Origin: Pseudomonas alloputida
GTDB lineage: Bacteria > Pseudomonadota > Gammaproteobacteria > Pseudomonadales > Pseudomonadaceae
Length of the DNA: 64,000 nt
Direction: 5' to 3'
NCBI RefSeq assembly: GCF_021283545.2
Contig: NZ_CP128540.1
Span: 4,809,501 to 4,873,500 of the forward strand
Within the stretch, counting starts at the first letter, position 1. Each line of letters opens with the position of its first letter. Under the pieces are notes generated by a model that saw nothing but the letters and a program-made list of their open reading frames with translations, was not told the DNA's origin and ran no database searches. Position numbers and translations under genes: made by a program. Positions 11,268 to 60,629 of this stretch are shown in pieces.

Positions 11268-11768
11268 TCAAATCGGGATGCAGCTCCAGGCCTTGCCATT
11301 CACCAGCACGGGGATGTACTCCCGACAGACACCAAACTCCTCTGCCAGGGCCTTGGGTGACTCACCACGCGCCCGGCGGCGCCTGATCTCGATGACCTGC
11401 GCCTCTGTCAGTCTTCGATGTCGGGCTCGCATGCCAGGCCCTAGAGTTCCATGGCGAATAGCGTCTTGGGCATTGTCCTCTCGCGTACCCCAGACCAGGT
11501 TCCCAGGGCGGTTATCAGTGCTGATGCCATTGAGGTGCCTGGCCTGCTGGTCGTCATCTTGTGGCAAGCCGCCATACGCCATAAGAACAAGCCGATGCAC
11601 TTCGAAGCGGTGACGCTCCCTCTTGCCGTTGACTCGCACGGTCAATGTGACGCGGTGATATCCACGGTTGACCTGGCTCTTAAGAACCCTGACCAATCCA
11701 GAGCGGACGGACGCAACTTCCCCATCCTCAGTCGCGTAGTAGCCGCTGAGGTTGGGTATAGGTCGCAT
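11268..11768 (-). CDS. HNH homing-type endonuclease with C-terminal HTH
   Basis: 166 residues. N-terminal NUMOD4-like strand pair (MRPIPNLSGYYATEDGEVAS), then an HNH_3 core: H of HRLVLMAYGG, ARHLNGISTDNRPGNLVWGT (His, Asn), and a C-terminal helix-turn-helix (LTEAQVIEIRRRRARGESPK). This layout is that of free-standing phage homing endonucleases. It sits between terS and a second HNH gene. A 9-bp inverted repeat (GATTTGATC arms, 11250-11274) overlaps its stop. Activity is not shown by sequence alone. Confidence 0.85.
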   Translation of the reverse strand: MRPIPNLSGYYATEDGEVASVRSGLVRVLKSQVNRGYHRVTLTVRVNGKRERHRFEVHRLVLMAYGGLPQDDDQQARHLNGISTDNRPGNLVWGTREDNAQDAIRHGTLGPGMRARHRRLTEAQVIEIRRRRARGESPKALAEEFGVCREYIPVLVNGKAWSCIPI

Positions 11769-11775
11769 GGTCTAT

Positions 11776-12141
11776 CTATCGATGTTGTCGGGATTCTTTC
11801 TGCGTCTTGGCCTTGTGGCAGTCGCGATTGATCGCCCGCAGGTTGTGATCATCATCCGTGCCGCCGTGGGCCAGCGCGACGATGTGGTCAACTTCATCTG
11901 CCTCGCGAATCCTTCCCAGCCTGGTGCAGTCGTCGCACCGGCACAGGTACTGATCACGCTTGAGGATGCGGTCACGCAGCCGACGCCATGGCCGGCCGCC
12001 ACGACCTGAGCCCTTGCGTGTAGCCCAGGCCTTAGCCTGCTCTGCCGCCACCTCTGCATGGCCGTCGCAGTAGCCATTGGCATTGCGGTGCAGGGACCGA
12101 CAACCCTGGGCTCTGCATGGGCGCTGTGGCCTCAGCGGCAT
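11776..12141 (-). CDS. HNH endonuclease of the packaging module
   Basis: 121 residues with a Cys pair (CRAQGCRSLHRNANGYCDGH), then the HNH core: YLCRCDDCTRLGRI, EVDHIVALAHGGTDDDHNLR and INRDCHKAKT. Genes of this kind lie next to the terminase genes in HK97-like phages (HK97 gp74), where the nuclease is needed for cos cleavage. Its start overlaps the end of the gene at 12132. Confidence 0.9.
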   Translation of the reverse strand: MPLRPQRPCRAQGCRSLHRNANGYCDGHAEVAAEQAKAWATRKGSGRGGRPWRRLRDRILKRDQYLCRCDDCTRLGRIREADEVDHIVALAHGGTDDDHNLRAINRDCHKAKTQKESRQHR

Positions 12142-12548: not shown

Positions 12549-12761
12549 TCACATGCCACGCCGCGTCAGCCCGTAGACCTCCAAGGCGCCTGCGATATTC
12601 TCGCCTTCGGCTTGACTGATGGTGTTGACCACCTCCACGCAAGCGGCGGTGTTGGGTTCCATGCGAATGGTGATGGATGTGACTTTCGATGGGTCCAGCC
12701 CAAGCACTTGGCAGACGGTCTGGCCAAGCTCTTGGCCAAGGATCAGGGGTTTCTTTTCCAT
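12549..12761 (-). CDS. Small phage protein of unknown function, preceded by a hairpin element
   Basis: 70 residues from ATG 12761 (MEKKPLILGQELGQTVCQVL); a longer frame to 12908 is rejected because it would overlap the holin. The start has GAGGAA 6 bp upstream, and directly before that lies the 35-nt inverted repeat at 12773-12807. The fold looks alpha/beta (SKVTSITIRMEPNTAACVEV). Function unknown. Confidence 0.7.
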   Translation of the reverse strand: MEKKPLILGQELGQTVCQVLGLDPSKVTSITIRMEPNTAACVEVVNTISQAEGENIAGALEVYGLTRRGM

Positions 12762-12772
12762 GCTGGTTCCTC

Positions 12773-12807
12773 GCGCCACGAAACGGCGCACTCTTATTTT
12801 GTGGCGC
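12773..12807 (-). promoter_or_regulatory. Hairpin element copy A (GCGCCAC-N21-GTGGCGC)
   Basis: Minus strand: a 7-bp inverted repeat GCGCCAC/GTGGCGC with a 21-nt spacer beginning AAAA and ending C. It occupies almost all of the 49-nt gap between the holin stop and the next start, and is followed at once by GAGGAA and ATG. The same element occurs at 20571-20605 and 21091-21125. Confidence 0.8.
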
Positions 12808-12810
12808 GGA

Positions 12811-13143
12811 TTACTCTGGCTTGCGACTGGGCAGCTTGAAGTCGGTAACGCGATCAGCAATCGCACGAACCTTCTCCACCCCAAGGAGGCCAACCCACCC
12901 ACCAACAAAGGCAGCCATGCTCTGTGGCAGGCCGAAGAACTCGAAGCCGCTGATGATTGTCAGGGTCAGGCCGCCACAGATGGCGCCCTCCACCAGCATC
13001 TGCCGGCGAGTGCCACCACCATAGGTGATGCGCAGTACAGCCATGGCGCAGGACAGACCGGCCGCGTACAGCAGGGGCGAATGCTGGCTCAACCATGCGA
13101 GGGCAACCGCCCAGGTGTCTGGTTTGTCTGGCATGTTGGACAT
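12811..13143 (-). CDS. Phage holin, lambda family
   Basis: 110 residues with three hydrophobic segments (about residues 20-38, 48-68 and 72-88: LLYAAGLSCAMAVLRI, GAICGGLTLTIISGFEFF, MAAFVGGWVGLLG) and a charged C-terminus. This matches the lambda-family holin 3 type (PF05106). It makes the inner-membrane lesions that let endolysin out. Two near starts (residues 1 and 4) could allow a dual-start holin/antiholin, as in lambda S, but this is only a possibility. No endolysin gene is next to it. Confidence 0.85.
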   Translation of the reverse strand: MSNMPDKPDTWAVALAWLSQHSPLLYAAGLSCAMAVLRITYGGGTRRQMLVEGAICGGLTLTIISGFEFFGLPQSMAAFVGGWVGLLGVEKVRAIADRVTDFKLPSRKPE

Positions 13144-13170
13144 CCGGGTTCCTCCCTTGCGGGAAGCAGA

Positions 13171-13201
13171 AAAAGAAAAGGCCCGCCGTTATGGCGAGCC
13201 C
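13171..13201 (-). terminator. Probable terminator upstream of the holin gene
   Basis: Minus-strand stem GGCTCGCC/GGCGGGCC (one mismatch), loop ATAAC, followed by TTTTCTTTTT. Late transcription must read through it to reach the holin. Confidence 0.6.
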
Positions 13202-13228
13202 TTGGATACGTGACAAGGTGGCCCCGTG

Positions 13229-13537
13229 CTATCGTCGAGCTTCCACACAAGACGTTCCACGGAGCGAAAAACGATGAAGGTAACCCTCAAGTGCGCCAAG
13301 TGCGGCAGTGACAAGTTCGAGGTTCCGGCTAGGCCGAACGACAACTCGAAGGTCACCTGCGGCAAATGCGGTGCTGTCGAGACTTACGGGAAGCTCATGA
13401 AGGCTGTGGGCGACAAGGTCACGAAAGACCTGCAGCGGCAGCTCGGGAAAATGTTCAAGTGACCTGAGCGTTTCAGCCAGAGGGCGCAGGAAGTCAGCGG
13501 CGCCCTCAACCTCAACGTCGAGCTGTAGCTTTTCCAT
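13229..13537 (-). pseudogene. SD-led minus-strand frame, possibly a truncated late gene
   Basis: An ATG at 13537 is preceded by a good GGAGG, and the first ~28 residues (MEKLQLDVEVEGAADFLRPL) look like the start of a small phage protein. The remaining frame runs antisense through the zinc-ribbon gene (13274-13462), which looks like the true coding strand there. I read this as the 5' remnant of a gene whose 3' part was replaced by the inserted plus-strand gene. It could also be a real overlapping gene. Confidence 0.3.
13274..13462 (+). CDS. Small zinc-ribbon protein on the opposite strand of the late operon
   Basis: 62 residues from ATG 13274 (MKVTLKCAKCGSDKFEVPAR) with GGAG 9 bp upstream; the frame also extends upstream to 13226 without a ribosome site. 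Two CxxC knuckles (CAKC and CGKC) define a zinc ribbon; the end is a basic helix (KVTKDLQRQLGKMFK). It is the only clear plus-strand gene within the late region, so it must have its own promoter and may be expressed in the lysogen. Function unknown. Confidence 0.75.
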   Translation: MKVTLKCAKCGSDKFEVPARPNDNSKVTCGKCGAVETYGKLMKAVGDKVTKDLQRQLGKMFK

Positions 13538-13553
13538 GCATCCTCCAGATACG

Positions 13554-13580
13554 AAAAAGCCCCAGCTGGTGCGAGGCTTG
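13554..13580 (-). terminator. Probable terminator
   Basis: On the minus strand AGCC...GGGCT arms around a GC-rich centre are followed by TTTTT. It ends the segment that contains the 31-codon frame at 13634-13729. Confidence 0.5.
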
Positions 13581-13633
13581 GAATGGGTGCGGAGGGCCGG
13601 TGCTTACCCGGCTTGTTGGTCTGGCTCGCTGGG

Positions 13634-13729
13634 TCACGTACCCCAGACTCTCATCGCGTAGCCGATCAGGGAGCGCACGGCTTTGATCGACGCCACTACC
13701 GACTTAGTCCAGCTGCCTGAGCGTGTCAT
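13634..13729 (-). CDS. Possible 31-residue basic amphipathic peptide
   Basis: ATG 13729 to TGA 13634: MTRSGSWTKSVVASIKAVRS, then LIGYAMRVWGT. The ribosome site is weak (GCGG). It lies alone between two terminators, downstream of pagL. The composition (basic, amphipathic) would fit a membrane-active peptide, but chance is a real alternative. Confidence 0.25.
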   Translation of the reverse strand: MTRSGSWTKSVVASIKAVRSLIGYAMRVWGT

Positions 13730-13734
13730 CCGCA

Positions 13735-13758
13735 CAAAAAAGCCCGCACAGGGCGGGC
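13735..13758 (-). terminator. Terminator of the pagL transcript
   Basis: GCCCGC/GCGGGC stem, 5-nt loop, then TTTTTT on the minus strand, 20 bp beyond the pagL stop. Confidence 0.8.
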
Positions 13759-13777
13759 AAAGAGGGATCGTGCTTTT

Positions 13778-14287
13778 TTAAATCTGGTGGCTGTAGAACA
13801 GCGAGTACGACTCGATACCGTCGTTGGGCTGCTTAATGCCAGCGTTGGAGTAGTGAATCGCTCGGATGCCAACCTTCTGCGTCTCGCCGATCTTCAAGCC
13901 CGCACCGATGCGGTCTTCGAAGTTGAAGGCCGAACCAAAGTCCTGGTCACCTGCGGAGGTACCAGAGAAGACCGCCAGGCCGATGCCAGCCTCAACGAAT
14001 GGCTTCACGTTACCGCTACCGAACTCGTAAACGAAAACTGGCGCAAAGGACAGCGAGTGAGCCCCACCTGAAGCATCGCCTGCTTCCCAGTAGGTGTAGC
14101 CAGCATCCCAATAACCGGTGAGACGGCCAGTACTGGATTCAAACCAGCTTTTGTCCCAGTTAAAGCCAATGCCGACGCGCGCTGTAAGACCACCTTGGCC
14201 TGTCGCGCCAAGCGCTCCGGATAGCTCAGCCGCTCCGGCGGACGCAGCGAAAAGGGAAAGCGCCACAACGGCGAGAACGTTTTTCAT
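13778..14287 (-). CDS. pagL: Lipid A 3-O-deacylase PagL-like (acyloxyacyl hydrolase), prophage moron
   Basis: 169 residues from ATG 14287, chosen because it starts a signal peptide (MKNVLAVVALSLFAASAGAA). The mature part alternates beta strands as in an 8-strand outer-membrane barrel, and near the C-terminus has AIHYSNAGIKQPNDGIESYS, carrying the PagL His-x-Ser-Asn and downstream Glu catalytic motif. PagL removes the 3-O acyl chain of lipid A in the outer membrane. The gene has terminators on both sides (14405-14438 and 13735-13758) and sits just after the Q gene, a usual moron site. A role in changing LPS to block other phages is inference. Confidence 0.87.
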   Translation of the reverse strand: MKNVLAVVALSLFAASAGAAELSGALGATGQGGLTARVGIGFNWDKSWFESSTGRLTGYWDAGYTYWEAGDASGGAHSLSFAPVFVYEFGSGNVKPFVEAGIGLAVFSGTSAGDQDFGSAFNFEDRIGAGLKIGETQKVGIRAIHYSNAGIKQPNDGIESYSLFYSHQI

Positions 14288-14404
14288 ACTCACGGTCTTC
14301 CATATTATTGAGTAGCAACCTATCAGAATCATAGCGCTATCAAATCGTTCCCTCATACAAGAAAAATGCTTTTTCTGGAGGGCTACCTGAATCGAAGCCC
14401 CTCA

Positions 14405-14438
14405 AAAACACAAAACCCCGACACGATGGCCGGGGTTT
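14405..14438 (-). terminator. Terminator between the Q gene and the late genes
   Basis: Minus-strand stem AAACCCCG/CGGGGTTT (10-nt loop) followed by TGTGTTTTT. Its place downstream of the antiterminator gene is that of lambda tR', where Q acts. Confidence 0.7.
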
Positions 14439-14512
14439 GTCTGTGTCGCGTAACGTTGCAAGCTGGACACGCTGCTATGAAAACAGGTGTTTATCCGCCC
14501 GCATAGAGCTAT

Positions 14513-14902
14513 TTATGCAGCCTCTCGAATTTCTTCGAGGGCGCAGTCGATCCATGCAACGCCGGCCTTGATGATCTCCCGCGCCTTGCGCTCAGACATG
14601 CCCGCTTCCCTCCCAACACGCATGGCTGGGTGCTTCGATCCGTAGTAAGCCCACACGAAATCCCCCATCTGCTGATTGCGCTTCGTCAGCCTGGCCACAG
14701 CGCCGTCGATGATCAGCGCAAGGTCGTCAGTGATCACATGCTGGCGAATGCCACCTTCACTGGGAACGTTGTCGCGCATGAGTGCGTAGAGAGGCGACAC
14801 GTAACGTGGCACTCCCATCTCACACATTCGCCACCAGCCCCACTGCTCGAGCATGTACTCGGTATCGCCCAGCGCCTTGTCCGCGTAGGTTCGTTTCTTC
14901 AT
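14513..14902 (-). CDS. Antitermination protein Q-like
   Basis: 129 residues from ATG 14902 (MKKRTYADKALGDTEYMLEQ); the longer frame to 14950 overlaps the preceding gene and lacks support. The pattern WGWWRMCEMGVPRYVSPL, LALIIDGAVARL and a C-terminal HTH-like AGMSERKAREIIKAGVAW fits the Phage_antitermQ family (PF06530). Q proteins let RNA polymerase pass late terminators, and several such terminators follow in the late region here. Confidence 0.82.
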   Translation of the reverse strand: MKKRTYADKALGDTEYMLEQWGWWRMCEMGVPRYVSPLYALMRDNVPSEGGIRQHVITDDLALIIDGAVARLTKRNQQMGDFVWAYYGSKHPAMRVGREAGMSERKAREIIKAGVAWIDCALEEIREAA

Positions 14903-15186
14903 GCAGCCCTCCGGGGCGTTGGGTCGGTATCCAGGCCGAACAGCTCGCACAGGAGCTTGTGGGCGTGTTTGTTCTTGGCGTTGCCCTCGATGATCCAGTC
15001 CTTCGCGAACTCTTCGAACCCCTTGTTGGCTCGGGCAGCGTGCCAGTCAGTCACGATATCCATCAAGGCTGCCGAGGCCAGGCGGCCGTTGGGTAGGTCC
15101 AGCAGCATGCGGTTTCCGACTGAGAGGAACTTGCGCTCAACGGCGGTCAGGCTTTTGCGCGGCAGCGCCGCAGTTACGTTGCTCAT
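14899..15186 (-). CDS. Phage protein of unknown function upstream of Q
   Basis: 95 residues from ATG 15186 (MSNVTAALPRKSLTAVERKF); this start overlaps the preceding gene's stop (ATGA). Mostly helical; central region DIVTDWHAARANKGFEEFAK. It is conserved-looking early-operon content, but I do not recognise the family. Confidence 0.68.
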   Translation of the reverse strand: MSNVTAALPRKSLTAVERKFLSVGNRMLLDLPNGRLASAALMDIVTDWHAARANKGFEEFAKDWIIEGNAKNKHAHKLLCELFGLDTDPTPRRAA

Positions 15187-15695
15187 CGAGCGACTCCTTG
15201 GGCCACACGGGCCTCGGCAATTCGCACATAGCCCAAGAACTGGTCGGCGGGCAGCGACTCCTTGATCACATCGAGGATGACCCGGTCCATGTTCTGCTGG
15301 GCGTGCGCCTTGGCCTCCTTGCGCAACTGGCCGCATCGGTACAGCAGGCGGGTGCGGTCATGGTTGATGTGCTTGAGCGCAGCCTTTGCTCGGTTGTACC
15401 AGCTGCGGTCGTATGGACGCCCCTGAACAGCGCCCTCTTGCGCCTGGCTCAGCGCCAGCTCCAGCCGAATTGCGTCACTCACCAGCTGCTCGTGCAGGGC
15501 TTCGCAGGCCTCAAGGGTTTCCGGCAGCTCGCGGGGCCCCACAAGCCGTGGATGCGCTTCTGCGAGTTTCGGGGCATTGCCAGTGGCAACAGGCTGGTCG
15601 GCGCCGGCTCGCTTGGTCACAGTCACCGAGACAACCGGGTTTGCAGGATTGCGGGCTGGCGGCTTGTGGCCTGGCCACAGATCAGAAAGTTTCAT
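15183..15695 (-). CDS. Phage protein of unknown function in the replication operon
   Basis: 170 residues. The first ~55 are Pro/Ala-rich and probably disordered; the rest is helical and basic (LEACEALHEQLVSDAIRLEL, SWYNRAKAALKHINHDRTRL). It overlaps dnaB by 14 bp and the next gene by 4 bp. The position between helicase and Q genes is where lambdoid phages keep nin-type genes; no specific call. Confidence 0.68.
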   Translation of the reverse strand: MKLSDLWPGHKPPARNPANPVVSVTVTKRAGADQPVATGNAPKLAEAHPRLVGPRELPETLEACEALHEQLVSDAIRLELALSQAQEGAVQGRPYDRSWYNRAKAALKHINHDRTRLLYRCGQLRKEAKAHAQQNMDRVILDVIKESLPADQFLGYVRIAEARVAQGVAR

Positions 15696-17091
15696 GGTGC
15701 TTGCTCCCCTTACGGTGTTTGGAGAAATTCACGACGCGGCCCATCTCGACCTCGTCGTCAGGCGGGAGGCGGTTGCCGGCGAAGTTGACGAAGCGGGCGT
15801 ACTGCCCTTGGCGCTGGACTAGGCACGAGCCCTGCGGGGCCTGGCGCCCCTTGTCGAGGATCAGCTCAGTGACGCCCTGCTCACCCGCCTCCGACTCCGG
15901 GTCGTGGTGCACAAGGATCACCGCGTCGGCGTCCTGCTCGATCTGGCCGGAGTCGCGCAGGTCGCTGGCCTGGGGTTTCTTGCCGGGGCGGCTCGCCGGG
16001 TTTCGGTTGAGCTGCGCCAGCACCAGCACCGGAACACTCAGCTCCTTGGCCAGGTTCTTCAGGGCGATGGAGACTTTTGCCACAGCATCGGCGCGGTTCT
16101 GACTCCTGCCTTCGGTGCCCACCAGCCCCAGGTAGTCGATCATCAGGATGTCGAGGCCCTGCTCGCGCTGGAGCTTGCGGGCTTCCGAGCGGATGGCGCT
16201 CATGGTCATACCTGGGGTGTCGTTCAGGTACAGCTGGGCGGCCTCGATCTTGCTACCCGCCGTCCCGATTCGCTGCCACTCGTCCTCGTCCAGGCTCTTG
16301 ACCTCCTCCATGCGACGCAGGTCGATACCACCCTGAGAGGCGATGGTGCGGACGGTCAGCTCCTTCTCGTCCATCTCCAAACTGAAGATCAGGCCAACCC
16401 CAGCTCCACGGATAGCGATGTGGTTGACGATCTGCAGGCCGAGCATGGTTTTGCCACTGCCAGGGCGGCCGGCGATCACCACCATGCTCTTGGGGCGCAG
16501 GAAGCCGATCAGCTTGTCCAGGTCAGCCAGGCCGGTGGACAGCTTCGGCGGCGCTCGATCGTCCAGCACCTCCTGCATGCCGTCGAAGACCTTGGGCAGC
16601 ACCTCGGCCATGCGCCTGTACCCGGCCTTCTGGGAGCCCTGCAGGTCACGCAAGTCAGCGATGGATTGCTGGGCCTGGGCGATGATCTCGTCCGGCACCA
16701 GGCCGCTTGCAACAGCAGCCTTCGCAGAATGACCAAGGTCGACCACCTGACGGATCACCGCCCACTGCTTGACCTGCTTTGCGTAGGCCATCGCGTTGGC
16801 CACCGAGGGCACGTTGCGGCAGAGGTCCACGGCGAATGCAAGGGTGCCCTGCCCGCTCGGCAAAGTTCGCTGCACGTCCCCGACCGTTACCGCGTCGACC
16901 GGCAAGCCGCGATCCAAGCATTCACGGATCACATCGAACAGGGCCGCGTGGTCGTCGTAGAGGAAATCGGCACTGGTCATCTGGCTCACGATGTCATCCA
17001 CAAGCGCGGCGTTGCCATCGAGAGACGCCAGCATGATCGCGCCCAGGACGCCGTGCTCGGCCTCGGGGTAGCCCATTACCAATTCGCTCAT
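15682..17091 (-). CDS. dnaB: Replicative DNA helicase, DnaB family
   Basis: 469 residues. N-terminal helical domain (AEHGVLGAIMLASLDGNAAL), linker, then the RecA-like domain with Walker A GRPGSGKT at 208-215, DnaB motif FSLEMDEKELTVR and Walker B LDILMIDYLGLV. The C-terminal ADLRDSGQIEQDADAVILVH is typical. It overlaps the loader gene by 4 bp, so loader and helicase are made together for phage replication. Confidence 0.95.
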   Translation of the reverse strand: MSELVMGYPEAEHGVLGAIMLASLDGNAALVDDIVSQMTSADFLYDDHAALFDVIRECLDRGLPVDAVTVGDVQRTLPSGQGTLAFAVDLCRNVPSVANAMAYAKQVKQWAVIRQVVDLGHSAKAAVASGLVPDEIIAQAQQSIADLRDLQGSQKAGYRRMAEVLPKVFDGMQEVLDDRAPPKLSTGLADLDKLIGFLRPKSMVVIAGRPGSGKTMLGLQIVNHIAIRGAGVGLIFSLEMDEKELTVRTIASQGGIDLRRMEEVKSLDEDEWQRIGTAGSKIEAAQLYLNDTPGMTMSAIRSEARKLQREQGLDILMIDYLGLVGTEGRSQNRADAVAKVSIALKNLAKELSVPVLVLAQLNRNPASRPGKKPQASDLRDSGQIEQDADAVILVHHDPESEAGEQGVTELILDKGRQAPQGSCLVQRQGQYARFVNFAGNRLPPDDEVEMGRVVNFSKHRKGSKHHETF

Positions 17092-17867
17092 GCTTCACCT
17101 CGCGCCGAGGACCAGGTGAACAGGACAGCAGGTCCGCCAGCATCGGTCAGACGGTCGACAGCGCGATCCCCCAGGCACTTGCGCAGGCCGGCTAGACCCA
17201 GGTTGGAGATCACGATGGTCGGCATCAGCTGCCGGTACCGGGAGTCGATCACCTCGAACAGCACCTGGCGCTCGAAGTCGCTGCCGTGTTGAACGCCTAC
17301 CTCGTCGATTACCAGCAGGTCCGGCGCCAGCAAGGAGGAATACACATCGCGCTCGGTCTGCTCGGACTTCTTGTCGAAGGTCATCTTGATATCGCGGATG
17401 ATCTCGATGGCCATGGTGTAGCGAGCGGAAGCGCCGTAGGAGCGAATCACCTGCTGAGCAATGGCGCAGGCCAGGTGGGTCTTCCCGGTGCCAACGTCAC
17501 CCAGCAGCATCATCGAGCGACCGGCATCCCAGTTGGCTTCAAACTCGTCCACATACTCGCGGCACTTGTTCAGCGCGATGGCCTGGCCTTCGCGATGCGT
17601 GTCGGTCCGGTAGCTATCCAGCGTTGACGCCCGGAAGCGCAGAGGAATACCAGAGGCCAGCAAGCTGGCATTCACGGCTCGTTCGCGCCGGATGGTCAGC
17701 GCAGGCTTGCGGATCGCATCGTCAGTCGAGTGGACAGCGTCGAACTGGCAGCGCGGGCATCCCTTCCAGAAATGGTCACCAGAAAACGACTCGATCAGCT
17801 CGTCAGTGTAGGTGCCGTGTGCGTGGCACTCGGCCGGCTTGGTCTTGAGAATCTGTGGAGTGGTCAT
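17088..17867 (-). CDS. DnaC-like helicase loader (AAA+ ATPase)
   Basis: 259 residues. An N-terminal Cys/His cluster (ECHAHG and GCPRC at ~14-40) may bind zinc. The AAA+ domain has Walker A GDVGTGKT (123-130), Walker B LLVIDEVG and a sensor region VISNLGLAGLRKCLGDRAVD. These proteins load the phage DnaB at the origin. It overlaps both neighbours by 4 bp. Confidence 0.93.
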   Translation of the reverse strand: MTTPQILKTKPAECHAHGTYTDELIESFSGDHFWKGCPRCQFDAVHSTDDAIRKPALTIRRERAVNASLLASGIPLRFRASTLDSYRTDTHREGQAIALNKCREYVDEFEANWDAGRSMMLLGDVGTGKTHLACAIAQQVIRSYGASARYTMAIEIIRDIKMTFDKKSEQTERDVYSSLLAPDLLVIDEVGVQHGSDFERQVLFEVIDSRYRQLMPTIVISNLGLAGLRKCLGDRAVDRLTDAGGPAVLFTWSSARGEA

Positions 17868-18355
17868 GATCTTGCTACCCGGTAGGTCCCGTCAGGCTGG
17901 CGAACCAGGCCTTCGGTGTGGTCAATCTTGTCGAGGTCGGTGTGGTTCGATTGGCCTGCGCCTCTGGTGCCAGATGCCCAAGCCTCTTTTTTCAGCCGGT
18001 CGACAATCCAAGAGGTCTTGAACCCCTGCCAAGCTGCCGTCATCGCCTCGGCCAGGGCTTTGTCGGGGCTGATCCCTGCCGCCCGACAGCCTTCAAGCTC
18101 AGCCAGTACGTTGTTCCAGATCGTCAGATTCAGAGGCCCTTTCTTCTTCCGGAACTGGAAGTAATCACGGGCGGTTTGCTCGCTCAGGTCAGGCGGTGCC
18201 AACTCGAGCATCTGCTCGACCGTAAACCCATCATTTCCCTTCTTACGGTTCTTTGATGGTTCACCTTTGGGTTCTATTACGGTTCTGGGGGCATCTGGTG
18301 CCGGGGTGAGGGGCACGTGGTGCCGGGGTCCCCGGCATCTGGTGCAGGGGGGCAT
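17864..18355 (-). pseudogene. C-terminal part of a frameshifted replication-initiation (HTH) protein
   Basis: 163 residues in a frame that begins inside the linker of the preceding gene. From about residue 27 it reads VIEPKGEPSKNRKKGNDGFT, then a conserved-looking helical domain (YFQFRKKKGPLNLTIWNNVL, SWIVDRLKKEAWASG). In related Pseudomonas phages I recall this domain as the C-terminus of one HTH_36 replication protein. The upstream ~26 residues come from out-of-frame reading of the linker. So this is likely the second half of a gene broken by a 1-nt change in a C-run; expression as a separate protein is possible. Confidence 0.6.
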
Positions 18356-18624
18356 TTAATGCCGGGGGCATAAGATGCCGGGGTTACGATGTAGTAGGTC
18401 GACCGCCCGGCACGCTCTTTCGCCACCAGCAAGCCGACGCTTTCCAGCCAACGGATCGCGTTGCGCACGGCACGCTCTTTCAGGCAGGTGCGCTCGCAGA
18501 TCCTGGCAATGGAAGGCCAGCAAACACCGTCATCGTTGGCATTGTCGGCCAAGGAGATAAGCACCGACTTCTGGGCAGCGCTCATTTCAAGCGGCCAGCA
18601 GGCGGTCATCAGGATGGTGCTCAC
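18277..18624 (-). pseudogene. N-terminal HTH_36 part of a split replication protein
   Basis: 115 residues starting with GTG at 18624 (GTGA overlap with the preceding gene). Residues ~10-85 are a winged HTH (SAAQKSVLISLADNANDDGV, RTCLKERAVRNAIRWLESVG), as in phage O-type replication initiators. A Pro-rich linker with repeats (APGIKCPPAPDAGDPGTTCP) then ends at a stop, while the expected rest of the protein continues in the -1 frame (17864-18355). The overlap of 79 bp lies wholly in the repeat linker. Confidence 0.65.
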
Positions 18625-18851
18625 AGTTGCAGCTCCTCACAAACGCGGCGCGCGAAGGCGTCGTAGCTCTCGGCCATCTCGAAGCCGTTGTCTTCCATCG
18701 CCTGGCGACCAGCCTTCGCCAGTTCGTAGATCGTCCAGCGCTCGCGCTCTGGCAGGCCCTTGAACTGGGTGTAGGTTGGCCAGGGTCCATTGATGATCGT
18801 TGCACCAGCGCGCTGCTGGAGCGCCTGGGGGGGGGTAGACGGGTTGTTCAT
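18621..18851 (-). CDS. Small early phage protein, unknown function
   Basis: 76 residues, MNNPSTPPQALQQRAGATII, followed by an acidic helical end (RQAMEDNGFEMAESYDAFAR). It overlaps both flanking genes by 4 bp and so belongs to the early operon. No family recognised. Confidence 0.65.
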   Translation of the reverse strand: MNNPSTPPQALQQRAGATIINGPWPTYTQFKGLPERERWTIYELAKAGRQAMEDNGFEMAESYDAFARRVCEELQL

Positions 18852-19441
18852 TGCAGGGTCTCCGGGCCAGGCACGCTTATCTTGTCCGCGCTCACGGGTT
18901 TGCCTTGCAGCGCCGTTGGGGCGAGCCTGGAGATCAGCACGCTGAGCGCATTCATGGCATCCATCGAGTGGGTCTGCGCGAGATCGAGCTCAATCACCGT
19001 GGGGCAATTGCCCTTGATGTGGTCGCTGACCCTGCTGGCGTAGTTGAAGCTGACCTGTGCCAACGCGTGGTCTGACAGGCTGGCGAAAGCACTGGCTGGC
19101 AGCGGGTTGATAGGGGATGCCTTGATGGGGATGAGTAACCGCGCCACCTCCCCGGCCAACAGGCAACGCCGCTCCTCGTCGAGATGATCGGCAGATACCT
19201 GCTGCACGTCGTGACCAGTGCGGCGCCGGAACAGAACGGCGAGAGCCATGCAGACCTCGATCAGCTTTACGTGGATCTCGTCGCGGTCGTGGATCTTGAC
19301 GCCCTCCCCGACCACCTCGACCGCATCGGCAACGCTTTCAAAGCACATCATCAACAACGCGGCGTCGGCGAACTTCTCGAAGAACTCTTCGTTGATGACA
19401 ACGGCTTCTGGAGCCTGGGCGAACTCGATCACCTTGCTCAT
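18848..19441 (-). CDS. Early phage protein, unknown function
   Basis: 197 residues, MSKVIEFAQAPEAVVINEEF; alpha-rich with a hydrophobic middle (IEVCMALAVLFRRRTGHDVQ). No catalytic motif seen. It is coupled by 4-bp overlaps to the genes on both sides. Confidence 0.65.
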   Translation of the reverse strand: MSKVIEFAQAPEAVVINEEFFEKFADAALLMMCFESVADAVEVVGEGVKIHDRDEIHVKLIEVCMALAVLFRRRTGHDVQQVSADHLDEERRCLLAGEVARLLIPIKASPINPLPASAFASLSDHALAQVSFNYASRVSDHIKGNCPTVIELDLAQTHSMDAMNALSVLISRLAPTALQGKPVSADKISVPGPETLQ

Positions 19442-19737
19442 TGGGCACGCTCCAGCGCATTCACAGCACGCTCCATACGAGCCTGGGCATTGCTCAGCAC
19501 TCGACGGGCCTTGGCGCGACGGTCATTAGCCGCAGCAGTGAAAAGACGAACCCCTTCCCACGCGTCGGTGTGCGGCAGGAACTCACCTTCTGGGCGACCG
19601 TGGGCGCGGAAATACACCTCGTACATGGCCTTGATTTCGGCGCGGGCCTCGCGGAAGTGGTGCTCGGCCTCGACCACATCCACTGCCGCCTGGACGATCC
19701 GGTCACGCGCTTGTTGCTTGGTTGATTTGATCGTCAC
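19438..19737 (-). CDS. Small helical early phage protein
   Basis: 99 residues, almost entirely helical and rich in Ala, Arg and Glu (VVEAEHHFREARAEIKAMYE; ANDRRAKARRVLSNAQARME), probably a coiled coil. It overlaps the antirepressor gene stop by 4 bp. Function unknown. Confidence 0.65.
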   Translation of the reverse strand: MTIKSTKQQARDRIVQAAVDVVEAEHHFREARAEIKAMYEVYFRAHGRPEGEFLPHTDAWEGVRLFTAAANDRRAKARRVLSNAQARMERAVNALERAQ

Positions 19738-20558
19738 AGGGGCTTCTCCGGAGTGAATTTTTCGTAATGGAACTGGCCGTCCCAGGTCTTCTTCATGGGC
19801 AGTTTCCCGGCGATGTACAGGTCGTGCAGGCGCCGTGCGCCCTTCTCCAGCATCACCGGGGCGTAGCGGATGAAACCGGTCATGCCCTCGCTGCTGACTT
19901 TGTATGGCTTCTCGGTGAGCAGGTGCTTGTCACGCGCCATGGCGTACACGCGATACTTGGGAGAATGGTCTGGGTCGGTCTCGGCGTTGTAGATCCACTT
20001 CAGCTCGGCCAGGAACGCCAGCATCAGCTGCGAATTCACGCCGTTGAGGCGCTTGGCGAACTGCGGAACCGTCTCCCCAGGCATGAACAGGTTCTCCAGC
20101 GCCTCGATCTTCTTGGCCTGCTGCTGGTTCTCAAGCACCAGCATCTCGTTCTGCTCTTCAAGGTCTGCGGCGAGGCGTAAAGCGTCAGCGCGAGTGCGAG
20201 GCACAGGGAATGCCTGCGGCCTGAAGTAGTTGCTGACCAGCTGGCGCTGGACGGTCCAGGCAAGGTCGTCGGTCAGCGACTTGACCAGCATCAGGTAGCC
20301 CTGCTCCGTGAGCAGAACAACGTCGTTCCGACGAAGACTGTCGGGAATAGCCCCAGGGTTGTTCCGACGAATTTCGTCGGAACCAACTTGGAAGTAGTCC
20401 TCCCCCGCAATCAGCCGCTCACGATGCTCGCGGAAATTGCGACCGGCCGTGCCCTCCGGCCTCTCATGCGCCAGGTCGATCATCGCCAGGGTGACGACAC
20501 GCTGACCCCGATACTCGACGACGGGCAGCTGGTTGTTGTGGATGGTGATCAGGTTCAT
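19734..20558 (-). CDS. Phage antirepressor with N-terminal ORF6N domain
   Basis: 274 residues. Residues 1-~95 match ORF6N (PF10543): LPVVEYRGQRVVTLAMIDLA and a strand-rich region ending DVVLLTEQGYLMLVKSLTDD. A coiled coil (~130-160) follows, then a C-terminal domain (FAKRLNGVNSQLMLAFLAEL ... KVSSEGMTGFIRYAPVMLEK) of the phage regulatory KilA-C/antirepressor type. Such proteins bind DNA or the repressor to favour lytic growth. Its start is directly preceded by hairpin copy B and GGGAGG. Confidence 0.85.
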   Translation of the reverse strand: MNLITIHNNQLPVVEYRGQRVVTLAMIDLAHERPEGTAGRNFREHRERLIAGEDYFQVGSDEIRRNNPGAIPDSLRRNDVVLLTEQGYLMLVKSLTDDLAWTVQRQLVSNYFRPQAFPVPRTRADALRLAADLEEQNEMLVLENQQQAKKIEALENLFMPGETVPQFAKRLNGVNSQLMLAFLAELKWIYNAETDPDHSPKYRVYAMARDKHLLTEKPYKVSSEGMTGFIRYAPVMLEKGARRLHDLYIAGKLPMKKTWDGQFHYEKFTPEKPL

Positions 20559-20845
20559 GCCACACCTCCCGCGCCACGTTTTGCAGCTGTAGGTTTTTGT
20601 GGCGCGGCGTGCTGCTGGGCTTCAAGGCTTCGAAGATTTTCATCCATCTTCCGCGCCCACTCCTCGGCATTGGTCGCCCACTCCTCGGCTTGTATGGCCC
20701 CGATACCGGCCAAGCGACCTGCAGTGTCAGGCTCGGGCAGCAATTTGCTCACGGCCAGGAACATGGTCTTGAAGTCGTTGAGCTTTTCCCGCAGCACCAT
20801 CAGGTCGTCGTAGGCTTCATCAGCAATGTTTTGAAGGGTCTTCAT
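20555..20845 (-). CDS. Small early phage protein with a hairpin-encoded C-terminal tail
   Basis: 96 residues, MKTLQNIADEAYDDLMVLRE, helical. Its last 19 codons include the 35-nt inverted repeat, giving a tail APQKPTAAKRGA. A different protein (21075-21380) ends with nearly the same peptide from another copy of the element, while the rest of the two proteins differs. Function unknown. Confidence 0.65.
   Translation of the reverse strand: MKTLQNIADEAYDDLMVLREKLNDFKTMFLAVSKLLPEPDTAGRLAGIGAIQAEEWATNAEEWARKMDENLRSLEAQQHAAPQKPTAAKRGAGGVA
20571..20605 (-). promoter_or_regulatory. Hairpin element copy B
   Basis: Minus strand GCGCCAC, 21-nt spacer starting AAAAACCTAC, then GTGGCGC. GGGAGG and the antirepressor ATG (20558) follow within 13 nt. 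Confidence 0.8.
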
Positions 20846-21078
20846 TGGGCACCCCCTGCGGCATTCATCAGCTGAAACAGCTGGTCCTGCGCCTGGTCGG
20901 CCAGCATGTACATCGCTTCGTGGATGGCGGATTCACCATGGAAATCAAGCTGAGGCTCGAACCCGCGTTGCTTGTCGTCCTTAAAGGCATGGTTCTCCAT
21001 GAGGATGGAGGCGAAGCTCTCGATTACGCGCAGACGGGCCATGACCTTTTCGCCCAGGTCGCTGATTGAAGTGGTCAT
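20842..21078 (-). CDS. Small early phage protein, unknown function
   Basis: 78 residues from ATG 21078 (MTTSISDLGEKVMARLRVIE), which overlaps the preceding stop (ATGA); the longer frame to 21180 is rejected. GGAGG lies 7 bp upstream, directly after hairpin copy C. Helical; no family recognised. Confidence 0.66.
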   Translation of the reverse strand: MTTSISDLGEKVMARLRVIESFASILMENHAFKDDKQRGFEPQLDFHGESAIHEAMYMLADQAQDQLFQLMNAAGGAQ

Positions 21079-21380
21079 TGGGATGCCTCCGCGCCACGAT
21101 CTGGCGAGGTAGGTTTTTGTGGCGCGTGGCCTTCCATATCCCTCACAGGAATCTCGATCGCTTCGAGCAGGGCCTCGCACTGGACGGTCAGGACGCGGAT
21201 CGCGTAGAGCTCGCTGCTGCCGTCAGCGCCATCTCCGATGAGGTTGCCGAGCAGGCAGTTGACGCTCGAAAGCATCGCGCCTGCCGCGGTGATGGCGGTG
21301 TTGCAGGACGTGCCGGCGTTGACCCGATATTTAACCCCCGAGGAGAAAAAGTGCGCCTCTTGCGTGGACAGGCGAGTCAT
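21075..21380 (-). CDS. Small early phage protein with a hairpin-encoded C-terminal tail
   Basis: 101 residues from ATG 21380 (MTRLSTQEAHFFSSGVKYRV). The start overlaps the preceding stop (ATGA). Resembles small phage proteins with a conserved His/Cys-containing N-terminus, but I cannot name it. The tail reads APQKPTSPDRGAEASQ, coded by hairpin copy C, matching the tail of the protein at 20555-20845. Confidence 0.66.
   Translation of the reverse strand: MTRLSTQEAHFFSSGVKYRVNAGTSCNTAITAAGAMLSSVNCLLGNLIGDGADGSSELYAIRVLTVQCEALLEAIEIPVRDMEGHAPQKPTSPDRGAEASQ
21091..21125 (-). promoter_or_regulatory. Hairpin element copy C
   Basis: Minus strand GCGCCAC, 21-nt spacer starting AAAAACCTAC, then GTGGCGC, followed by GGAGG and ATG 21078 with 12 nt between the stem and the start codon. 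Confidence 0.8.
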
Positions 21381-21694
21381 GGCTGCATCTCCCATTTTTC
21401 GATAGCGACCTGCGCGCTACGATTCAGGGTGTTCGCAGCATCGGCCAGGAACGCCAGCGCACGAAGCTCGTTCGTGCGAATGTGCTCCCCCATGTTTGCC
21501 GCCAGCTCAAGGCGATGGGCGAGCTGGTGAATGCCCTCGGTGAGCCCTACAGCTAGGCCAATGCCTTCCATCAAGCCGACATCGGCTTTGATCGAAAAGA
21601 CCGCATCTCCCTCAAACTCGTGCGAGCCAAAATCCATCGGACGCAAAAGTGGTAGTTGCTCCGGTGATGGCGTGGTGGTATTTTTCGGGTGCAT
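21377..21694 (-). CDS. First early gene after cro, unknown function
   Basis: 105 residues, MHPKNTTTPSPEQLPLLRPM, with a helical middle (GLMEGIGLAVGLTEGIHQLA). AGGAGGACGAG precedes the ATG. It is the first gene after the tR1-like terminator at 21721-21742, the place of cII or similar in lambdoids, but there is no HTH and I do not call it cII. Confidence 0.65.
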   Translation of the reverse strand: MHPKNTTTPSPEQLPLLRPMDFGSHEFEGDAVFSIKADVGLMEGIGLAVGLTEGIHQLAHRLELAANMGEHIRTNELRALAFLADAANTLNRSAQVAIEKWEMQP

Positions 21695-23519: not shown

Positions 23520-23609
23520 CGCTGCCAGCCTGACCTGATCCAACCCTGATTTTTGCGAAAGCCAACAAACGCGGCAGGCCACCGGCTTGCCCGAAATAAG
23601 GAGATTCAC

Positions 23610-24023
23610 ATGCTTATGCTCAGCCGGAACATCGGCAAGGCCGTCATCATCGGCGGCAACATCCGGGTCAGCGTGGCCCAGGTTAACGGCTGTCAGGTTC
23701 GCCTGGGGATTGAGGCCCCGCGCGGGGTGATCGTTGACCGCGAAGAGATCCACGCCCGCCGCGTGGCTGAAGGTACCGTCGATGAAGCGCCAGCGTTCAG
23801 CATCGACGAGCACGTCAAGCTGGCGGCAGATGCGCGCCGTTACCGCTGGCTGCGTGACCGCGAGCGCATCGAAGATCCTGACGAAGACCTGCTGGTAGTG
23901 CGCGGCGATAACTGGCTCTCCGGCGAAGAGCTGGATCAGGAGATCGATACCGCCCTGCGCGTGCAGGCCATGCAGCAGCAGGTGGTGCAGGAGTCGCAGG
24001 TGGTGCAGGAGCAACATCAATGA
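23610..24023 (+). CDS. csrA: Phage-encoded CsrA family RNA-binding protein with C-terminal extension
   Basis: 137 residues from ATG 23610, with AAGGAG 6 bp upstream; the frame to 23553 is rejected. Residues 1-~52 are CsrA (MLMLSRNIGKAVIIGGNIRV; later GIEAPRGVIVDREEIHARR, keeping the Arg-Glu-Glu-Ile core used for RNA contact). An ~85-residue extension follows; its part YRWLRDRERIEDPDEDLLVV and GEELDQEID resembles a tail found on several unrelated phage early proteins. Normal CsrA is ~60 residues. It may redirect host or phage translation; that is inference. Its stop overlaps the next start (ATGA). Confidence 0.88.
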   Translation: MLMLSRNIGKAVIIGGNIRVSVAQVNGCQVRLGIEAPRGVIVDREEIHARRVAEGTVDEAPAFSIDEHVKLAADARRYRWLRDRERIEDPDEDLLVVRGDNWLSGEELDQEIDTALRVQAMQQQVVQESQVVQEQHQ

Positions 24024-58547: not shown

Positions 58548-60629
58548 ATGAAGCATTTCCTTCCAAGCACCGCACTGGCTGTGATGATCGGCCTGGGCAG
58601 CCTCACGCTCGGCGGCAATGCGGCGGCCGCCAACAAGTGGGACAGCCTGCAGCCCGACCGCGACGAGATCGTCGCCAGCCTCAACGTGGTGGAATTGCTC
58701 AAGCGCCACCACTACAGCAAGCCGCCCCTGGACGATGCCCGTTCGGTCATTATCTACGACAGCTACATCAAGCTGCTGGACCCGGCGCGCAGCTACTTCA
58801 CCGCTGCCGACATTGCCGAATTCGATAAATGGAAAACGCAATTCGACGATTTCCTCAAGAGCGGCAACCTGGACCCGGGCTTCACCATCTACAAGCGCTA
58901 CCTCGACCGCGTCAAGCAACGCCTGGACTTCGCCCTGGCCGAGCTGAACAAGGGTGTGGACAAGATTGACTTCACCACCAAGGAAACCTTGCTGATCGAC
59001 CGCAAGGACGCGCCGTGGATGAAGAACCAGGCCGAGCTCGACGACTTGTGGCGCAAACGCGTCAAAGACGAAGTGCTGCGCCAGAAGATCGCCGGCAAGG
59101 AACCCAAGCAGATCCAGGAAACCCTGATCAAGCGCTACAAGAACCAGCTCACGCGCCTGGACCAGACCCGTGCCGAGGACATCTTCCAGGCCTACATCAA
59201 CACCTTTGCCCAGTCCTACGACCCACACACCAACTACCTGTCGCCGGACAACGCCGAAAACTTCGACATCAACATGAGCCTGTCGCTCGAAGGCATTGGT
59301 GCAGTGCTGCAAAGCGACAACGACCAGGTCAAGATCGTGCGCCTGGTGCCAGCGGGCCCGGCAGCCAAGACCAAGCAGGTGGCACCGGCTGACAAGATCA
59401 TCGGCGTGGCCCAGGGCAACAAGGAGATGGTCGACGTGGTGGGCTGGCGCCTGGACGAAGTGGTCAAGCTGATCCGCGGCCCGAAAGGCTCGGTGGTGCG
59501 CCTGGAAATCATCCCGGCCAGCAATGCGCCTAGTGACCAGACCAGCAAGATTGTGTCGATCACCCGTGAAGCGGTGAAGCTTGAAGAACAGGCGGCGAAG
59601 AAGTCGGTGCTCAAGCTCAAGCAGGACGGGCGTGACTACAAGCTGGGCATCATCGAGATCCCGGCCTTCTACCTGGACTTCAAGGCCTACCGCGCTGGCG
59701 ACCCCGAGTACAAGAGCACCACGCGTGACGTGAAGAAGCTGCTCACCGAACTGCAGAAAGAGAAAGTCGACGGCGTGGTCATCGACCTGCGCAACAACGG
59801 CGGCGGCTCGCTGCAGGAAGCCACCGAGCTGACCAGCCTGTTCATCGAGAAAGGCCCGACCGTGCTGGTGCGCAACAGCGATGGCCGTGTCGACGTGCTG
59901 GAAGACGAAAACCCGGGGGCCTTCTACAAGGGCCCGCTGGCACTGCTGGTCAACCGCCTGTCGGCCTCGGCATCGGAGATCTTCGCCGGTGCCATGCAGG
60001 ACTACCACCGCGCGCTGATCATCGGTGGCCAGACCTTCGGCAAAGGCACCGTGCAGACCATCCAGCCGCTCAACCATGGCGAGCTGAAGCTGACCCTGGC
60101 CAAGTTCTACCGGGTTTCCGGGCAGAGTACCCAGCATCAGGGGGTACTGCCGGACATCGACTACCCCTCGATCATCGACACCAAGGAAATCGGCGAGAGC
60201 GCCCTGCCAGAGGCCATGCCGTGGGACACCATCCGCCCGGTGGTCAAGCCTGCGGCCGATCCGTTCAGGCCGTTCCTGGCCCAGCTCAAGGCGCAACATG
60301 AGGCGCGCAGCGACAAGGATGCCGAGTTCACCTACATCCGCGACCGCCTGGCCCTGACCCAGAAGCTGATGAACGAGAAAACCGTCAGCCTCAACGAGCA
60401 GGAACGCCGCGCACGCCACGACAGCATCGAGAGCAAGCAACTGGCGCTGGAAAACACCCGCCGCAAGGCCAAGGGTGAAGAACCGCTGAAAGAGCTGAAG
60501 AAAGAGGACGAAGACGCTCTGCCGGTCGAGGATGAAAATACCAAGCCGGAAGACGACGCTTACCTCGCGGAAACCGGTCGCATCCTGATCGACTACCTCA
60601 GTGCCAGCACCAAGGTGGCCAAGAAGTAA
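58548..60629 (+). CDS. prc: Carboxy-terminal processing (tail-specific) protease Prc
   Basis: 693 residues from ATG 58548, which begins a signal peptide (MKHFLPSTALAVMIGLGSLT); ATG 58515 is upstream. PDZ region (EGIGAVLQSDNDQVKIVRLV), S41 catalytic Ser in RLSASASEIFAGA and Lys in FGKGTVQ; C-terminal DUF3340-type domain. A periplasmic protease that in P. aeruginosa (AlgO/Prc) degrades MucA forms. Confidence 0.95.
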   Translation: MKHFLPSTALAVMIGLGSLTLGGNAAAANKWDSLQPDRDEIVASLNVVELLKRHHYSKPPLDDARSVIIYDSYIKLLDPARSYFTAADIAEFDKWKTQFDDFLKSGNLDPGFTIYKRYLDRVKQRLDFALAELNKGVDKIDFTTKETLLIDRKDAPWMKNQAELDDLWRKRVKDEVLRQKIAGKEPKQIQETLIKRYKNQLTRLDQTRAEDIFQAYINTFAQSYDPHTNYLSPDNAENFDINMSLSLEGIGAVLQSDNDQVKIVRLVPAGPAAKTKQVAPADKIIGVAQGNKEMVDVVGWRLDEVVKLIRGPKGSVVRLEIIPASNAPSDQTSKIVSITREAVKLEEQAAKKSVLKLKQDGRDYKLGIIEIPAFYLDFKAYRAGDPEYKSTTRDVKKLLTELQKEKVDGVVIDLRNNGGGSLQEATELTSLFIEKGPTVLVRNSDGRVDVLEDENPGAFYKGPLALLVNRLSASASEIFAGAMQDYHRALIIGGQTFGKGTVQTIQPLNHGELKLTLAKFYRVSGQSTQHQGVLPDIDYPSIIDTKEIGESALPEAMPWDTIRPVVKPAADPFRPFLAQLKAQHEARSDKDAEFTYIRDRLALTQKLMNEKTVSLNEQERRARHDSIESKQLALENTRRKAKGEEPLKELKKEDEDALPVEDENTKPEDDAYLAETGRILIDYLSASTKVAKK

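Follow-up and report, generated by a model that had tools for sequence, protein, structure and literature searches.

A 34-35-nt inverted repeat at the mosaic joints of genes and protein parts in Pseudomonas temperate phages

What holds three exact copies of a 35-nucleotide (nt) inverted repeat in front of three genes of one prophage? The question arises from a 64,000-nt stretch of Pseudomonas alloputida DNA (assembly GCF_021283545.2, contig NZ_CP128540.1, positions 4,809,501 to 4,873,500), referred to below as the window. A preliminary description had placed the repeat, GCGCCAC-N21-GTGGCGC, directly before the Shine-Dalgarno (SD) sites of these genes. All three copies were recovered as exact matches at the positions given for them. 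Read on the minus strand, all spacers have 21 nt, with AAAA at the start and C at the end, and the ATG follows the right arm by 11 nt in copy A and by 12 nt in copies B and C, with the placement before the SD as claimed. The frames in which copies B and C are read as tails of the upstream genes were confirmed as well. Compared across viral contigs and bacterial genomes, the element is a mosaic joint of Pseudomonas phage genes and protein parts. The three copies are the following, where ORF stands for open reading frame and type 1 for the arm sequence given above:

12773..12807, minus strand: element copy A, type 1, 35 nt, between the holin stop codon and the ATG of a 70-amino-acid ORF
20571..20605, minus strand: element copy B, type 1, 35 nt, in-frame tail of ORF 20555-20845, with the antirepressor ATG 12 nt on
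21091..21125, minus strand: element copy C, type 1, 35 nt, in-frame tail of ORF 21075-21395, with the ATG of a 78-amino-acid ORF 12 nt on

The holin stop codon lies 3 nt from the start of copy A. Copies B and C are translated as the ends of their upstream ORFs (...HAAPQKPTAAKRGAGGVA and ...GHAPQKPTSPDRGAEASQ, respectively), and the stop of each ORF overlaps the next ATG. With up to two mismatches allowed, the window holds four matches against 1.45 expected in shuffles, a number that was reached in 5 of 100 shuffles; the fourth match, at 60413, lacks the AAAA edge and looks like chance. A fourth exact copy was found in another prophage of the same genome, which also has arm-exact copies at C1:1476909 and C1:4008429 and one with an odd loop at C1:4738871. 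A sigma-70 consensus scan of positions 12600-21400 gave one site, which is not at any element, other promoter types being outside the scan. The terminator-like site in copy A occurs on the opposite strand only. The Rfam 15 search returned no window match at the gathering score and none with E <= 1 in 20000-21500, and no description of the element was found in the literature searched. The element thus still appears nameless, as first supposed, although most subscription papers were outside the coverage and an earlier description is possible.

The type-1 family consists of the 34-35-nt inverted repeats GCGCCAC-N20/21-GTGGCGC in Pseudomonas temperate phages. In viral contigs, the pattern GCGCCACAAAA-N17-GTGGCGC matched at least 120 stretches, as did each of three further patterns, and a narrow pattern matched 60. 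In 149 Pseudomonas genomes the same pattern gave 28 rows in 16 genomes (25 places, since palindromic matches appear once per strand) and the reversed control pattern gave none, which is not a random occurrence. Among 274 genomes sampled across the class, a type-1 match was found only in the genome of the window and in none of the 273 from other genera. Similarity to viral contigs was present on both flanks in 28 of 33 element rows in genome loci and on one flank in 3. Among the matches listed for named genome contigs, all 37 loci that combine the element with a virus-like flank belong to Pseudomonas, in a scan that also contains many chance matches in other phyla. Short blastn searches against named phages returned 23 and 2 records, few of them spanning the element, and the record of Pseudomonas phage YMC11/02/R656 has no repeat annotated.

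While the spacers vary, the arms are nearly invariant. Across 566 loci the arms were exact in 491 copies, with one change in 12 and two changes in 7, one of them compensated, and shuffled-arm controls gave 0 to 2.2. Because these loci had been retrieved by exact arms, the count was repeated with mismatches allowed in the 149 genomes; among the places listed, about 51 have exact arms, about a dozen have one change and none has a compensated pair (hand count). One further C-G pair usually extends the arms, in 277 and 278 of the 320 35-nt copies. When 31 spacer lengths were allowed, 36 of 63 rows were 35 nt long, 16 were 34 nt and 11 had other lengths, against 26 rows in total for the reversed control (hand counts). 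The element is therefore conserved with nearly constant spacing, 34-35 nt in 52 of 63 rows, in agreement with the preliminary description. Other arm sequences at these spacings, mainly CCTGTCT and CCGATGC, were rejected as families, each seeming to be one conserved place (six examples of each). The inverted repeat CCGATGC-N20-GCATCGG lies inside a longer conserved stretch at loci L355, L363, L366, L372, L390 and L394, has 29 copies at this spacing and might be an intergenic RNA or a terminator. The Chi sequence of Pseudomonas syringae is given as GCTGGCGC (PMC5959072). With the right arm of the element it has TGGCGC alone in common.

Flank families, set by homology within 60 nt of the element, number 128 on the left and 174 on the right among 497 unique copies and are freely combined. 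The left family U1 (25 copies) is joined to 15 right families, and the right family D1 (22 copies) to 11 left families. Since the families were defined within 60 nt, the result lies in the sharpness of the edge and not in the loss of homology farther out. Pairs of 35-nt copies sharing the left family only are near background from the second base past the element (0.35 vs 0.33), and those sharing the right family only from the second base ahead of it (0.32 vs 0.38). With one representative per family, the left-flank genes were three holins, an Rz-like spanin, two head-morphogenesis genes, one weak spanin match and one unknown. The right-flank genes encode an Acb2/Tad1 hairpin domain (PF24729, E 1.5e-19), a putative metallopeptidase, a portal protein, an HslV-like peptidase and unknowns.

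Alignment ends were concentrated at both edges: the 10-nt bins there contain 3730 stops on the right and 1235 starts on the left. About 3750 further starts, 100-140 nt upstream of the element, are taken as the left end of a leader family of 135 copies, which contributes to the right-edge peak of stops too. Given a homologous left flank, the right flank differs in 0.76-0.88 of cases at elements vs 0.44-0.49 at 1356 ordinary junctions, which are mechanical ORF calls with false genes among them. Given a homologous right flank, no excess of different left flanks was found at elements (0.43-0.68 vs 0.64).

The preliminary description had also considered a small mobile cassette. Genes do shuffle at the element, but it usually stands at one seam of the extra gene: in 85 comparisons, some of which are one place seen again on the opposite strand, it was found at the left seam only in 38, at the right only in 13, at both in 1 and at none in 24, with 9 other outcomes. 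An integron attC-like cassette, with a site on both sides of the inserted gene, was rejected on the single comparison with both seams, and the rule of one seam makes the element a joint and not an integron-like cassette. One candidate empty site was found, within loci themselves retrieved by the element.

A sample independent of the element was provided by the anti-CBASS gene acb2, which stands directly behind it in the D1 loci with ten or eleven different left families. Of 80 acb2 relatives retrieved by protein, 79 were examined (L012 was left out), and up to 110 nt upstream were scanned. The best arm match had 0 mismatches in 28 leaders, 1 in 5, 2 in 24, 3 in 4, 4 in 6 and more in 12, while the corresponding numbers for 374 background windows were 0, 0, 4, 14, 53 and 303. 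The 26 exact cases with sufficient flank belong to 10 left families. The leaders L629, L632 and L636 retain mainly an inner hairpin formed by a spacer segment and the right arm.

All 24 two-mismatch leaders read GCGACAC...GTGTCGC, a paired change at position 4 that defines a second type. It is present in 24 of the 46 acb2 leaders that lack a type-1 element at up to one mismatch. Type 2 matched at least 120 stretches in viral contigs; in the 149 genomes it was 34 or 35 nt long in 58 of 74 rows, against 11 control rows of any length (hand counts). Its 151 unique copies include 61 with a stop codon at the same offset (-6) as in type 1, and 13 right and 15 left family labels are common to the two types. 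No type-2 site at spacing 20 occurs in the window. Among 94 loci with at least two elements, intergenic pairs were type 1 in 32, type 2 in 4 and mixed in 0; both types met in 5 of the 94, and each of these includes a type-1 copy that has no adjacent stop. Hybrid elements numbered 3 against 519 and 150 pure ones, in loci mostly retrieved by the pure forms, and were found at 2 places in the 149 genomes. Locus L808 reads as a recombinant within the element. The paired change fits a hairpin and a symmetric DNA site equally well. A 25-nt palindrome, GCGACACGTTNNNNNAACGTGTCGC, occurs in four genomes (G135:C38:187411, G087:C3:147504, G137:C50:1460 and G038:C20:20999) and is possibly an operator sharing the type-2 half-site.

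The contexts of the 497 unique type-1 copies were classed by rough text rules, with palindromic copies counted on both strands, after an earlier classing by codon score had left 353 of 523 unassigned. The element starts 1-5 nt after a stop codon in 192 copies, 173 copies belong to six families whose element lies in frame within an ORF, and 132 are in neither group. The commonest distance from the stop is 3 nt (94 of 320 copies of 35 nt). An SD and a start codon follow within 24 nt in 184 copies, and a terminator-like sequence comes next in 32. In the 135-copy leader family, all of 34 nt, an in-frame leader such as MHMQTTSVQALSRL continues through APQNxxxxxxVAR into varied antirepressor-like bodies of 17 right families. 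Another in-frame form, PRHKxxxSxxVAR, is found in a small protein, close to its C-terminus. In both examples the right arm encodes V-A-R while the left frame shifts between the 34- and 35-nt lengths, which we read as frame keeping. Among the upstream proteins, the translations of U4, U6, U8 and L132 appear to be out of frame, and the family search with L132 was set aside. Since the element stands behind stops, before SD sites, before terminators and in frame within genes, a translational switch, as first proposed, is not its general role.

An RNA hairpin, in which the transcribed element would be a translation coupler, an RNA-processing site or a protein-binding hairpin controlling the next gene, is unlikely. 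It would suit the polar orientation of the element, the starts close behind many copies, the 8-base-pair (bp) GC stem, the folding z-scores of -0.96, -1.05 and -2.52 for copies A, B and C, respectively, and the compensated arms of the second type. Among 177 intergenic spacers, 60 contain a complement of the right arm of at least 5 bp against about 10 in mononucleotide shuffles, and 19 one of the left arm against about 8, so hairpins could compete. However, the copies in in-frame ORF families and before terminator-like sequences do not agree with it, and 34 and 24 of 200 shuffles, respectively, fold at least as well as copies A and B. Within type 1, 12 single arm changes stand against 1 compensated pair, so that pairing in RNA is not by itself what selection maintains there. 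Of 14 single changes, 5 are of wobble type and 3 of A.C type, and wobble is not clearly favoured; the commonest single change among the places listed, GCACCAC, makes an A.C mismatch on the AAA strand (hand count). Intergenic type-1 spacers, that of copy A included, often include GCGCC or CCACG, a second segment able to pair with the right arm. Early-class spacers (copies B and C, L009, L033 and L037) have CCTACC or CCTACCTC, complementary to the following SD GGAGG(TG), which they might mask in RNA.

The arms are near-invariant within a type, jointly different between types and uniform within a locus, which favours a trans-acting phage protein over pairing alone. A small protein family common in these phages, the phrog_5439 group, has the element within its own gene and is probably of the ribbon-helix-helix (RHH) kind. 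Its sequence matched no known RHH family among Pfam, NCBIfam and Protein Data Bank (PDB) sequences; the fold was compared by Foldseek, with a second look limited to the folds that Foldseek returned. The presumed DNA-contact strand of this protein differs between the element types, and the residues in question are expected to face DNA.

We tentatively favour the explanation that the element is a DNA inverted repeat for a phage RHH-type protein, placed at seams across which recombination brings modules together, the acb2 gene for one; the RHH protein is the leading candidate and the likeliest binder. A phage-encoded, sequence-specific protein, likely of the RHH-like phrog_5439 group, would bind the double-stranded element at genome seams, namely after stops, at antirepressor starts, ahead of terminators and inside the RHH gene. 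Binding may regulate, by analogy with the Arc/Mnt control of the P22 antirepressor. Since the same constrained site stands at the seams of phages with a given specificity, those seams could act as common joints, where ordinary or relaxed homologous recombination, with no dedicated recombinase, would exchange modules. Genes and protein domains would be swapped there and the site retained. Two observations weigh against this explanation: the prophage of the window has no detectable RHH gene, and the RHH strand and the element type changed together only about once.

Both observations, together with CI-like and Cro-like genes in that prophage, would suit a passive seam, at which the element is the site of another regulator (a host protein or a phage CI/Cro), the RHH gene is just another carrier and mosaicism arises incidentally from short homology. 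This is improbable, as the type is uniform within loci yet varies among the phages of a single genus, an argument against a host reader, and the RHH strand differs at the residues mentioned above. Besides the CI-like repressor and Cro-like genes, the prophage carries an integrase, DnaC-like and DnaB-like genes, a Q-like antiterminator, a holin, two HNH genes and a terminase. The genes around the copies are:

12811..13143, minus strand: holin/anti-holin (phrog_126, E 1.9e-38), left neighbour of copy A
12549..12761, minus strand: 70-amino-acid ORF without a PHROG match, right neighbour of copy A (right family D17)
19734..20558, minus strand: antirepressor (phrog_4608, E 4.5e-40), right neighbour of copy B (right family D24)
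20555..20845, minus strand: 96-amino-acid early ORF without a PHROG match, its 3' end being copy B
20842..21078, minus strand: 78-amino-acid early ORF (phrog_16312, unknown), right neighbour of copy C
21075..21395, minus strand: 106-amino-acid early ORF (phrog_6327, unknown), its 3' end being copy C
11776..12141, minus strand: HNH endonuclease (phrog_144, E 1.4e-28), lying downstream of copy A and ahead of the terminase genes
11268..11768, minus strand: second HNH endonuclease (phrog_59, E 1.4e-34), adjoining the first HNH gene, before the terminase

The ORF at 23553-24023 (plus strand), near the prophage repressor region, contains MLMLSRNIGKAVIIGGNIRVSVAQVNGCQVRLGIEAPRGVIVDREEIHARR and has by eye a CsrA/RsmA-type look.

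The two HNH genes lie two genes downstream of copy A and raise the idea of a dedicated recombination site, at which a putative phage or host recombinase or nuclease, such as an HNH enzyme near the terminase, would cut or join. The apparent recombinant at L808 points the same way, as does the density of alignment ends, which is 0.273 per nt at elements, 0.095 at long-ORF ends and 0.027 at random places. Normalised by coverage, however, the densities are 15.2 at elements, 8.7 at the ends of ORFs of at least 600 nt and 2.6 at random, a 1.75-fold excess over ORF ends, and extra genes usually have the element at one seam. A dedicated site is a poor prospect.

The favoured RHH explanation has a wider form, which is doubtful: a grammar of module exchange, in which the RHH protein and its 34-35-bp sites would mark exchangeable seams, the two exclusive specificities would amount to two networks of exchange and regulation, a gene would be kept only behind a matching site, and the 34-nt form would keep the frame for domain swaps. 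With the element, phage mosaicism would gain a concrete, testable joint, possibly together with a protein that reads it, and the two natural types would make DNA recognition by an RHH-like family testable with no designed variants. The genes directly behind the element are exchangeable accessory genes, and since acb2 is among them, the element could point to further counter-defence genes.

Several known systems share features with the element. The stoperators of mycobacteriophage L5 are many 13-bp asymmetric sites at gene seams, oriented with transcription and bound by the immunity repressor. Copies at seams are oriented with transcription in both systems and a phage protein binds, or in our case is a candidate to bind, them; the Pseudomonas element differs in being a 35-bp inverted repeat with a different candidate protein. 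In the immI region of P22, the RHH-type proteins Arc and Mnt have an operator near the start of the antirepressor gene, and the element resembles this in its candidate RHH-type protein and its site near an antirepressor start. The P22 operators are local to immI, whereas the Pseudomonas sites are spread over the genome and their candidate has no sequence match to RHH families. Lambdoid boundary sequences are likewise short, conserved and found at the borders of modules, with a proposed role in homologous recombination; they are not known to have a symmetric structure or two matched types.

The SAS/ESAS repeats of cluster K mycobacteriophages lie a few nucleotides from the start codons of many genes, and about half have inverted repeats, of 17 bp with a variable spacer and with a consensus that differs between subclusters; the authors see little support for an mRNA hairpin (PMC3203893). 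The element is similar in standing just ahead of the start region in copies A, B and C and in the 184 copies followed by an SD and a start codon. The 13-bp SAS, GGGATAGGAGCCC, has no match in the window with up to 2 mismatches. ESAS have imperfect arms, spacers of mostly 4-13 bp and sites in the non-structural half of the genome (PMC3203893), whereas the element has near-invariant 7-bp arms and a length of 34-35 nt, occurs also within genes and before terminators, and is a mosaic joint. The promoter early stem-loops (PeSLs) of T4-like phages are short repeated stem-loop elements said to mediate gene shuffling between related phages (PMC4503421). Like them, the element marks the borders of shuffled genes. 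PeSLs contain an early promoter (PMC4503421) and reportedly a terminator, whereas the element has no sigma-70-like site at the window copies and also joins protein domains in frame. In the literature searched, SAS/ESAS and PeSLs are the kinds closest to the Pseudomonas element.

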